A stretch of DNA of 38,557 bases from Gemmatimonadota bacterium (lineage in GTDB: Bacteria > Gemmatimonadota > Gemmatimonadetes > Longimicrobiales > Gaopeijiaceae): positions 1-38,557 of the forward strand of contig JAHEKM010000012.1 in assembly GCA_024638325.1 (NCBI GenBank). The letters are read 5' to 3'. Made by a program: the position numbers and the translations under genes. Positions 34,499 through 37,898 of the stretch are shown one piece after another. Under the pieces are notes generated by a model, which was given only the letters and a program-made list of their open reading frames with translations, was not told the DNA's origin and searched no databases. The stretch's first letter is position 1; every line of letters begins with the position of its first letter.

Positions 34499-35725
34499 AT
34501 GCTGCTCTTCGAGATCATCATGGTGGCCATGGGGGCAGTGAGGGCCAACCTGCTCCGCTCCGTGCTCACCACGCTCGGCATCGTCATCGGCATCGCGGCG
34601 GTGATCACGATGGTGGCGCTCGGAGAAGGCGCCCAGCGGCAGGTCCAGGAGGAGATCAACCGCATGGGTACGACGGTCCTGACCATTCGCCCCGGCCAGC
34701 AGCGCGCGGGCGGCGTGTCATGGGGCGACGCCGAGATGTCGATCGACGACGCCATAGCGCTCCGGGCCGAGGCCAGCGACGTCGTCACGGTGTCGCCCGA
34801 GCAGCGCTCCGGCATGCAGATCGCGTACATGCGCTGGAACGCGCGTTCGGAGGTCATGGGCGTGTGGCCCGAGTACTTCGATATCTACAACATCGGGCTC
34901 GCCGCGGGACGCTACTTCACCCAGAGTGAGGTCGCGGGCCGTCGGCGCGTCGCGGTGCTCGGCGCCGCTGTGCTGGCCGACCTCGACGAGTCCCTGTCTG
35001 ACGTTCATCCCGAGCTCATTCTCGGAGAGACGCTCCAGATCCGGGGCATCAGCTTCGAGATCGTGGGCGTGTTGGAGGAGAAGGGGGACGCGGGCTTCCT
35101 GAGGCCCGACGGGAGCGTCTTCATGCCGCAATCGACCGCGCAGTACCGCGTGATGGGCAGTCGCAACCGCCTGAACACGATCTACGCGTCGACGGAGACG
35201 CCCGAGGACATGAACCTGGCGTACGCGGAGATCGATCGGATTCTGCGCCGGGAGCACCGCATTCGCGCGGGTGACGACGCGGACTTCCAGATCTCCAACG
35301 CGACGGATCTCCTGCAGACGTTCAACGAGACGCGGCAGACGTTCACGGCACTGCTCGCCGGCATCGCGGGCATCAGCCTGCTCGTCGGCGGCATCGGCAT
35401 CATGAACATCATGCTCGTGTCCGTGACGGAGCGGACACGCGAGATCGGCGTGCGTAAGGCACTGGGCGCGACCCGTAAGGCGATCATGATCCAGTTCCTG
35501 GTCGAGGCGCTGTTCCTGTGCATCCTGGGCGGGCTGCTGGGCGTCGGCGCCGGGTACGGAGCGGCCGCGCTCATTCGCAACATGGCCGGGTGGCAGGCTG
35601 TCGTGGCGCCTGTCGCGGTGATCGCGGCGATCGTCTTCTCGGCCGGAGTGGGGCTGTTCTTCGGGATCTGGCCCGCGAGGAGAGCGGCTCTCCTCGATCC
35701 GATCGACGCGCTGCGCTACGAGTAG
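34499..35725 (+). CDS. MacB-like ABC transporter permease
   Basis: AVRANLLRSVLTTLGIVIGIAAVITMVALGEGAQRQVQEEINRMGTTVLTI; VGGIGIMNIMLVSVTERTREIGVRKALGATRKAI. Confidence 0.95.
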   Translation: MLLFEIIMVAMGAVRANLLRSVLTTLGIVIGIAAVITMVALGEGAQRQVQEEINRMGTTVLTIRPGQQRAGGVSWGDAEMSIDDAIALRAEASDVVTVSPEQRSGMQIAYMRWNARSEVMGVWPEYFDIYNIGLAAGRYFTQSEVAGRRRVAVLGAAVLADLDESLSDVHPELILGETLQIRGISFEIVGVLEEKGDAGFLRPDGSVFMPQSTAQYRVMGSRNRLNTIYASTETPEDMNLAYAEIDRILRREHRIRAGDDADFQISNATDLLQTFNETRQTFTALLAGIAGISLLVGGIGIMNIMLVSVTERTREIGVRKALGATRKAIMIQFLVEALFLCILGGLLGVGAGYGAAALIRNMAGWQAVVAPVAVIAAIVFSAGVGLFFGIWPARRAALLDPIDALRYE

Positions 35726-35758: not shown

Positions 35759-35937
35759 AGGCTGGGCCGGCGCGTGTGCCCCGGGGGTTCGGGGGCCGCT
35801 CGTCGCTTGGGCGGGCAGGTCCTTTCCACGTACAGTGACTCGCTGCGGCGAGGGGCCGACCGACCCGCGCCCTGCAGGCGCGGGTTCCCCTCGCCGAGCC
35901 CCGCTCACCCACCGGGGCACACGCGCCGGCCCGGCTT
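35759..35937. repeat. nested inverted-repeat element: 21-bp perfect outer arms plus inner 10-bp and 8-bp stems
   Basis: GGGCCGGCGCGTGTGCCCCGG (35764-35784) / CCGGGGCACACGCGCCGGCCC (35912-35932); CGGCGAGGGG (35846-35855) / CCCCTCGCCG (35887-35896); CCCGCGCC (35864-35871) / GGCGCGGG (35877-35884). Confidence 0.85.
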
Positions 35938-36043: not shown

Positions 36044-37255
36044 CTACCGCCTCAGCAAGACCTCCAAGGTCCGGCCTTGCCTCACCAGCGAGATCGGCAG
36101 GGCCTCTCCCGAGCGGGAGACGCCGAAGCGGAGCTCTTCGACGGATCGGACCCCGACCTGGTCGATGCGGGTGATGACGTCACCTGGGATCAGTCCAGCC
36201 ATGGCGGCGGGGGTCCCGGGGGCCACGTCGACGATGAGGACGCCGTTCTCAACGGCGAAGTACTGGGCGAGCTCGGGTCGGAGGTCGATGACGTGGGCGC
36301 CGGCGACCATGTTGCTGCCGACGACGTAGGGCGTCAGCGGCCGGAAGACCGGCGTCTGGTCCGGGGCGGCCGGTGGTGGTGCAGGCGTCGCCGACGGGGC
36401 CCACACGGGTACGGGGGACGACCAGCCAGGCACGATGTACTCGACGCCCGCCGATGCTCGGGCTGCATCGGACATCGCTGCCCGCAGCTCGGCGGACTGC
36501 CTGGTCACCTCCTCGATCGAGGCCCTCAAGCGCCCCAGGTCCTCCTCGGCCTCGCGGGCCGCCCTCCGGCTGAGCGAGGCCAGCCGGAGCTTGTCCAGCT
36601 GGGCCTCCTCCTGCCGACGAAGGTCGTCACGGGCGCGGGTGAGCGCCTCCATCGCCTGACGGAGCGAGTCGTGGGCTTCCCCACGGAACACGAAGAACTC
36701 GAAGGGCGCGTTGACCCCCCCGTCCGTCTGTGTCTCATCTACGAGCCGAATGGTGCCTCTGCCGCGCGCATCGTCGTCGCGGTCGGCGTTCATCTGAACG
36801 AGCCGTACGCGCAGAGAGTCCATCGCCCGAACCATGGTCTCGACCATGGCGTCGGTCTCCGTTGCCACCCTGACGGTCCGAGTGCGGACGTCGTCCGGAC
36901 GTTCGGCCGCCCTGACGACGACCTCGCGGCGACGTCCGTCGCGCTCGATTCGCACGCGTACACGCTCGCCCACTCGCAGGCGGAGCCGCTCGGGCAGCGC
37001 CAGGAAGTCCTCGGCTCCTCGCAGGTCGTTGATGGACACGAGCCTGTCGCCGGGGCGCAGTCCGGCCTCCTCAGCGGGGCTCCCCTGCCGCACGTCCTCG
37101 ATGAACACGAGGGTCCGGTCGTCGGCGCGCCCGCCCACGACGCGAACGTCGAGCGAGATACCGATCCACCCGTCGCGCTCGCGCTGTGCGGACGCCGGCT
37201 GGGCGACCGTCACCAGCACACCGAGGGCCAGGAGCCCGACCGAAGCTCGTCTCAT
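36044..37255 (-). CDS. secreted tandem-PDZ protein without protease domain
   Basis: Signal peptide MRRASVGLLALGVLVTVAQPASAQ; PDZ1 GWIGISLDVRVV...VRQGSPAEEAGLRPGDRLVSINDL; PDZ2 GVLIVDVAPGTPAAMAGLIPGDVITRIDQVGVRSVEELRFGV; coiled-coil between. Confidence 0.85.
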   Translation of the reverse strand: MRRASVGLLALGVLVTVAQPASAQRERDGWIGISLDVRVVGGRADDRTLVFIEDVRQGSPAEEAGLRPGDRLVSINDLRGAEDFLALPERLRLRVGERVRVRIERDGRRREVVVRAAERPDDVRTRTVRVATETDAMVETMVRAMDSLRVRLVQMNADRDDDARGRGTIRLVDETQTDGGVNAPFEFFVFRGEAHDSLRQAMEALTRARDDLRRQEEAQLDKLRLASLSRRAAREAEEDLGRLRASIEEVTRQSAELRAAMSDAARASAGVEYIVPGWSSPVPVWAPSATPAPPPAAPDQTPVFRPLTPYVVGSNMVAGAHVIDLRPELAQYFAVENGVLIVDVAPGTPAAMAGLIPGDVITRIDQVGVRSVEELRFGVSRSGEALPISLVRQGRTLEVLLRR

Positions 37256-37256
37256 A

Positions 37257-37898
37257 TCAGAACCAGTTGTCTTCCGTGAGCGAGACCATGCGCGCGGCAG
37301 CGTTGCGCTCAGCCAAGGCAGAGGCCAGGAAGCCGTTGAGGAATGGGTCGGCCGGCGCCTGCCGCACGGCCGCCTGGCTGACGGATACGAGCTGCTCGAG
37401 CGCCGCATACCGGCTGTACGGGTCCGAGCCGGAATCGTCGACGCCGTCCTCGGCCAGCAGGTCGCGGTAGGTGGATACGGCGGTCACGTAGCGTGTCTCG
37501 GCCTCGCGCACCGCGCTCGCGGCTTCCTCCACCGTGGACGCGACGGGCGCGGGTCGGGCGCTCTCGCGCGCCATGAGTCCGGCCCCCGTCGCGGCGCCGG
37601 CGAAGAAGAGGACGATCGCGGCGGCGGCGGGCATCCACGCCGGGGTGCGTGCGAGACCGAGCTTGCTGAGCGGCGTCGCGTCGCTCACCAGCCCCTCCGA
37701 TCGCAGTTGCGCCTCGAGGACCTCCCAGTCACCGAGGGGCGGCATGATCTCGGGGAGCGTCGCAAGCGCCTCGGTCTGATCGCGCAGCGCGGCCAGCTCG
37801 TCGGCACAGATCTCGCACGCGTCGAGGTGCTCCGTCTCCGCCGGGCCGGGACTTCCGTCCACGAGCCTGGCCAACGTCTCAGCGGTCAAATGCTCCAT
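37257..37898 (-). CDS. zinc-finger anti-sigma factor with one TM
   Basis: MEHLTAETLARLVDGSPGPAETEHLDACEICADELAALRDQ (HxxxCxxC), TM AAAAIVLFFAGAATGAGLMA. Confidence 0.85.
   Translation of the reverse strand: MEHLTAETLARLVDGSPGPAETEHLDACEICADELAALRDQTEALATLPEIMPPLGDWEVLEAQLRSEGLVSDATPLSKLGLARTPAWMPAAAAIVLFFAGAATGAGLMARESARPAPVASTVEEAASAVREAETRYVTAVSTYRDLLAEDGVDDSGSDPYSRYAALEQLVSVSQAAVRQAPADPFLNGFLASALAERNAAARMVSLTEDNWF

Follow-up and report, generated by a model that had tools for sequence, protein, structure and literature searches.

The stretch of DNA that we analyzed, hereafter the window, comprises 38,557 nt of a contig from a Gemmatimonadota bacterium (JAHEKM010000012.1). Toward its end, a gene for a MacB/FtsX-type ABC permease and a convergent gene for a protein with two PDZ domains are separated by a gap that holds a nested inverted-repeat element (Table 1). 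An earlier note on this DNA, made from the sequence alone, had described such an element, and our analysis bears this out: the outer arms measure 27 nt and contain a 21-bp perfect block (35764–35784/35912–35932). One alignment of the outer stem (P1) gives 24 bp with a single G.U pair, not the two of the earlier description. The permease stop lies at 35725 and P1 begins 35 nt further on, very near the 34 nt estimated previously. A second perfect stem of 10 bp (P5) lies within, again as described, and the apical stem around the CTGCA loop has 9 bp (ACCCGCGCC, 35863–35871, with GGCGCGGGT, 35877–35885), one pair more than had been counted.

The element folds with z = -8.41 on the plus strand and -7.03 on the minus strand, and 0 of 200 shuffles were equally stable, which answers the earlier call for a fold check of both strands. 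Its outer stem is the longest inverted repeat of the window and one of only three stems with a score of at least 15 in 354 kb of the host genome. In 175 kb of first-order random control sequence, one stem arose, with a score of 16. A chance origin of the inverted repeat in the window is excluded.

Table 1. Features of the permease-PDZ locus and of the element between the two genes.
Feature	Position	Strand	Basis
Upstream gene, MacB/FtsX-type ABC permease	34499..35725	+	Pfam PF12704, PF02687
P1 left arm, long closing stem	35761..35787	+	Inverted repeat, 93% complementarity over 27 nt; 21 bp perfect
Conserved core	35788..35907	+	Covariance-model match: R1 78.3 bits, E 1.3e-13 for the genome; R3, including P1, 46.9 bits
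P2 left, GGGGC	35792..35796	+	Pairs with 35898-35902 (GCCCC); all six pairs of the helix covary (core alignment)
Junction motif CCGCTCG, first base also closing P2	35796..35802	+	Conserved columns of alignment A8
Junction motif GACTCGCT (family consensus GGCTCGCT)	35837..35844	+	Conserved columns of alignment A8
P5 left, CGGCGAGGGG	35846..35855	+	Pairs with 35887-35896; 8 of 10 pairs covary
P5 loop motif CCGACCGA	35856..35863	+	Frequent, not universal, in the element family
Extra apical 9-bp hairpin around CTGCA, inside P5 loop	35863..35885	+	Absent from aligned tuf copies of the genus
P5 right, CCCCTCGCCG	35887..35896	+	Partner of P5 left
P2 right, GCCCC	35898..35902	+	Partner of P2 left; same covariation basis
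P1' right arm, closing stem	35909..35935	+	Same basis as P1; no T-run behind
Convergent gene, protein with two PDZ domains	36044..37408	-	Pfam PF17820, PF13180

The element belongs to a dispersed family of structured elements, present at low copy number in a single Gemmatimonadota family and apparently undescribed so far. A DNA search turned up a related stretch that follows tuf, both in this genome and in that of a congener. The interiors of the window and tuf copies are alike; their outer arms differ in sequence, yet pair in each copy. A pattern search returned five further copies in another genus, and a first covariance model, limited to the core, found copies in ten genomes plus one spurious match in genome G109. 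When P1 was included, the covariance model gave 37 matches in 13 of 40 genomes, one of them (c98b of genome G130) a truncated tandem copy. An additional copy, G017:C96:14208, came from a census of stems, and because it had escaped the whole-genome model search, these copy numbers are lower bounds. With at least 37 copies, the element is not the single-copy palindrome that the earlier note had named as one ground for calling it incidental.

The range of the family appears narrow, although the genome searches score only the best candidates per genome, so that absence is not proof, and many of the genomes searched are incomplete metagenome bins. With P1 in the model, no match reached threshold in two sister families (24 genomes sampled) or in 16 more genomes of the carrier family. 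A less strict search across 395 Gemmatimonadota genomes produced two marginal matches outside the family (G194 and G253), with no convincing fold. The proposed search for a known structured RNA came back empty, with no match in Rfam 15 at E values up to 1 in the region and four related loci and none at the gathering score in the window. Several groups of candidates were discarded: motif-scan matches in Streptomyces and others among about 85,000 species genomes (all those outside Gemmatimonadota fail the covariance model), weak early BLAST matches (L006–L015, short chance matches), several pattern matches (L016–L020) in which the element is absent on reading by eye, and G109c100, G194, and G253, which score above or near threshold and lack the fold.

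Three parts make up the element, namely the closing stem P1, a junction with conserved motifs, and the stems P2 and P5. P1 is 16–34 bp long (20–34 bp in most copies), its arms lie about 80–130 nt apart, and between copies it has almost no sequence conservation and, in most of them, nearly perfect pairing; in alignment A8, all 16 of its pairs have changed on both sides. Conservation is strongest at unpaired positions, CCGCUCG and GGCUCGCU. The roughly 61-nt left interior segment, which had been called unpaired or lightly paired, was thus incompletely described, since it carries these junction motifs and is the best conserved part of the element rather than filler. A predicted hairpin, P3, likely forms between the two motifs. 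In about ten copies, a longer loop of variable sequence stands in place of the P5 loop motif.

Covariation within the family is strong. The alignment of the 37 matches was fitted to the model and thus leans towards structure; in it, standard pairs occupy 93.8% of paired cells (58.8% when shuffled), both sides have changed in 28 of the 29 pairs, those of P1 among them, and the covariation score is 0.792, compared with 0.181 for shuffled alignments and less than 0.17 for every slid control. Alignment A7, built from copies chosen mostly for their shared register, leans the same way, while the detection of stems copy by copy is independent of both alignments, and the core-only count agrees. Compensatory helix changes of the kind that mark a structured RNA family are therefore present, and the second ground for regarding the element as incidental, a want of covariation in relatives, falls away.

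The position of the copies relative to genes is also consistent. With tandem duplicates left out and orthologous copies (which are not independent) counted, a simple ORF caller places about 30 of 36 copies downstream of a stop codon on the same strand; for tuf copies at contig starts, the gene position was assigned by reading the sequence. Most copies start within about 10–40 nt of that codon, and in the 25 copies where the gap between stop and P1 could be measured, its median is 7 nt, with 15 gaps under 10 nt. The exceptions are a few copies with no close sense gene upstream and G022c31, which stands behind an opposite-strand gene. Host genes were assigned by Pfam or, in the case of tuf and the remaining sufD copies, from sequence. 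They include tuf (six genomes) and sufD (three), as well as rpsJ, rpoC, sucA, gdhA, yggX, and genes for a molybdopterin oxidoreductase and an adenosine deaminase; we take tuf, rpsJ, and rpoC to be highly expressed.

Such a gene-end position, with convergent genes in the window, raises the potential that the element is an unusual terminator in which a long G+C-rich hairpin stops transcription between genes without a T-run, and stems of 15–18 bp with short loops likewise stand at gene ends in genome G017. However, an intrinsic terminator pairs its G+C-rich hairpin with a following T-run, and the 15 nt behind P1' hold a mean of 2.4 T and at most 5, with no T-run 3' of the window copy. In addition, an arm spacing of about 80–130 nt is too large for a classical intrinsic terminator, and the element also occurs inside the tuf-rpsJ and rpsJ-rplC gaps. 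We consider this explanation improbable, and we concur with the previous judgment that the element, with its missing T-run and an interior of about 100 nt, is not a simple terminator. The broader idea that long stems are common terminators of the host genome failed, given only three such stems in 354 kb.

Our preferred reading, which we hold tentatively and at somewhat less than even confidence, is that the element is a structured 3'-UTR element that determines or shields the 3' ends of mRNAs and whose core has spread between gene-end hairpins. The upstream mRNA would carry the element as its tail, and P1, right behind the terminating ribosome, would form a barrier that fixes or shields the 3' end, either by blocking 3'-5' exonucleases or by being cut as a double-stranded processing stem. 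The upstream gene could then be expressed separately from what follows, and the core module may recognize a factor or shape the barrier. We favor this reading because of the covariation far above shuffled and slid controls, the position behind same-strand stops with short gaps and no T-run, and the nature of the host genes; it is also favored by the behavior of relatives that lack the core and by paired changes in P1, both described below. Of the candidates that the earlier note had put forward, a structured element at mRNA 3' ends thus gains support from position. Against our reading stand the patchy distribution of the element (13 of 40 genomes) with congeners that lack it at the window's permease-PDZ locus, the few copies without a near sense gene, and G022c31 with its opposite-strand neighbor.

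The evidence on strand also counts partly against the 3'-UTR reading. Single folds favor the plus strand in 24 of 35 cases, and consensus energies are nearly equal. If selection acted on the sense RNA, G.U wobbles should be preferred among mismatches, but the opposite is found: mismatches of P1, P2, and P5 pooled on the plus strand comprise 21 G.U and 37 A.C. The tuf copies of genomes G000, G001, and G091 have 3–5 A.C mismatches in P1 on the sense strand. We did not adopt a minus-strand reading drawn from the wobbles of tuf copies, as other copies point the opposite way and position favors the sense strand. Overall, the indications on strand conflict, with position favoring sense and the pooled wobble pattern leaning to the opposite strand.

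Alternatively, the element may be a trans-acting or housekeeping small RNA, either cut from 3' UTRs or expressed from a promoter of its own, perhaps on the other strand; P1 would then serve as a processing stem. Conserved unpaired motifs, a long stem around a fold of about 100 nt, and the lean of the wobbles (37 versus 21) would all suit such an RNA, although the preference of single folds for the sense strand does not, and many nonidentical copies per genome, with none in most relatives, would be odd for a housekeeping RNA. We regard it as unlikely. The rarity of G.U pairs (21 of about 990 cells, no commoner than A.C) is what one would also expect if the stems were kept perfect by a DNA-level process, with one palindrome arm copied onto the other and no selection on RNA. 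It would also suit the partial tandem duplications that adjoin several copies (repeating the element's 3' half just downstream at L040 of genome G103, L089 of G003, and L033 of G130), as though the palindrome slipped readily. Such maintenance of the arms is possible, yet it leaves both the conserved unpaired motifs and the fixed position behind stop codons unexplained, and as a full account we find it very improbable.

Relatives that lack the core bear on the history of the element. In many of them, tuf is followed right behind its stop by a plain, long, near-perfect hairpin with no T-run and an unrelated sequence; others have a short gap behind tuf and no hairpin. The plain tuf hairpins, for instance at L095, L102, L105, L108, L110, L114, and L115, mostly have short loops. 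The orthologous permease-PDZ gap holds a plain stem of 24 nt around a 56-nt loop in genome G003 and a weaker hairpin in G001, with nothing comparable in G009. The gap hairpins of G001 and G003 (L123 and L124 among our loci) have a loop stretch in common, CTYCGGCTGATCGCG, and different stems; a putative "core B" family based on this stretch was dropped, as other exact matches to the motif have no flanking stem. Judged from these tuf and permease gaps, the hairpin seems to belong to the gene end and the core to be optional, a module that appears to be spreading among gene-end hairpins.

The cores themselves group by genome, with 18 changes on the core tree compared with 25.7 when shuffled, although branch support is mostly weak. 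This grouping above chance indicates that copies arose within genomes, as expected of a spreading repeat, and thus tells against the 3'-UTR reading. Close cores can sit in unrelated P1 stems, as in the tuf, c98, and yggX copies of G130 and the c22c and c96 copies of G017, while in two pairs, c31/c16 of G022 and rpoC/m20 of G003, P1 was kept along with the core. A comparison of the orthologous tuf copies in G000 and G001 shows changes on both sides of at least two P1 pairs (A-U to U-A and G-C to A-U), so pairing was kept after divergence.

These patterns lend weight to the main rival of our reading, a miniature mobile element that consists of the core and inserts into the loops of existing gene-end hairpins, with P1 as host sequence and the structure kept for mobility rather than host function. 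Close cores in unrelated stems of the same genome, the clustering by genome, the existence of plain long hairpins without a core, and P1 mismatches that show no wobble preference, as in decay, are all consistent with it. It fits less well with the two pairs in which P1 was copied together with the core and with the P1 pairs that changed on both sides after divergence; moreover, we came upon no identical stem with an empty site, and 12 of the 13 carriers yielded no Y1 transposase. We judge it rather unlikely, though a serious competitor to the 3'-UTR reading. If it is true, a tiny element can spread while the enclosing palindrome is replaced.

The census of genome G017, over 400 kb, revealed other long-stem elements with unrelated cores. 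Two inverted elements between divergent genes (L241:12256–12413 and L241:12726–12867) have interiors about 80% identical and different long stems, the same design of conserved core and free stem with another core. Another pair (L241:2082–2244 and L246:3775–3941) is 85% identical over its whole length, ends in ACTAGTGTCC, and looks like an ordinary MITE. The tuf-rpsJ gap of G000, G091, and G130 holds a second long-stem element ahead of rpsJ. In G000 (L032:1554–1691) it has a 25-bp perfect stem and an 88-nt interior and stops 16 nt short of rpsJ. The interiors of the G000 and G091 elements are 82% identical and their stems unrelated; a similar element occurs in G130, and G003 has a related interior. 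This second element was also seen in L037 and L051, where the minus strand was read, and has no Rfam match.

It is possible, if doubtful, that several unrelated cores in this lineage make up a whole class of small elements, each with a conserved folded module inside a near-perfect palindrome of free sequence, which in the present family is placed against stop codons. Such a class would be either a new type of gene-end regulator or a new type of mobile element that jumps between gene-end hairpins and leaves its palindrome behind. If the 3'-UTR reading holds, key messages, such as those for EF-Tu, a ribosomal protein, and RNA polymerase, would end in a specific folded module rather than a plain terminator. 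This would offer a handle on 3'-end biology in Gemmatimonadota, a phylum for which we found no literature on 3'-end biology of this kind.

Several known systems resemble the element in part. REP, BIME, and REPIN sequences are extragenic palindromes that are thought to affect mRNA 3' ends and that spread within genomes (PMC3116915, PMC3733652); REPs measure 20–40 bp, have a GTAG or CGTC tag at one end, and often occur in very many copies (PMC3733652). Our element is likewise a palindrome outside genes that has spread within genomes, but it is about 180 nt long, occurs in a handful of copies, has arms with no common sequence, and has a conserved interior. Neither the size nor the tag of a REP or REPIN was found; the P1 ends read from copies have no tetranucleotide in common. 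The Y1 transposase (PF01797) is represented among the 13 carriers, several of them incomplete genomes, by one short match in G002. MITEs have conserved terminal inverted repeats, whereas here the arms differ in nearly all copies and the core is conserved. The REP/MITE-like repeat proposed in the earlier note is therefore disfavored, on account of the low copy number, the unconserved arms, and the near absence of the transposase, even though the clustering of cores by genome shows that a repeat-like history is present all the same. IS1397 and other insertion sequences target REP palindromes (PMC1525189). Like them, the core is a unit inside gene-end palindromes, but they are full insertion sequences with a transposase, and the core has about 100 nt and no gene.

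Comparative genomics has revealed structured RNA motifs in bacteria (PMC2864571). Our family resembles these motifs in that it covaries, can be defined by a covariance model, and is limited to one clade; unlike them, it lies behind the stops of unrelated genes, with a sequence-free outer stem, and not ahead of one gene class. The RNase III processing stems around pre-rRNA are long double strands whose sequence matters little and which enclose a folded RNA. P1 likewise forms a long, sequence-free double strand around a folded core and in most copies reaches the length of about 20 bp or more expected of an RNase III stem. Cleavage is putative here, and the core is small, lies in 3' UTRs, and occurs at many loci. 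Group IIC introns target terminator-like hairpins. At about 100 nt, with no intron-encoded protein seen and a place inside the hairpin rather than beside it, our element differs from these introns, yet it shares with them the arrangement of a structured element at gene-end hairpins in a fixed orientation.
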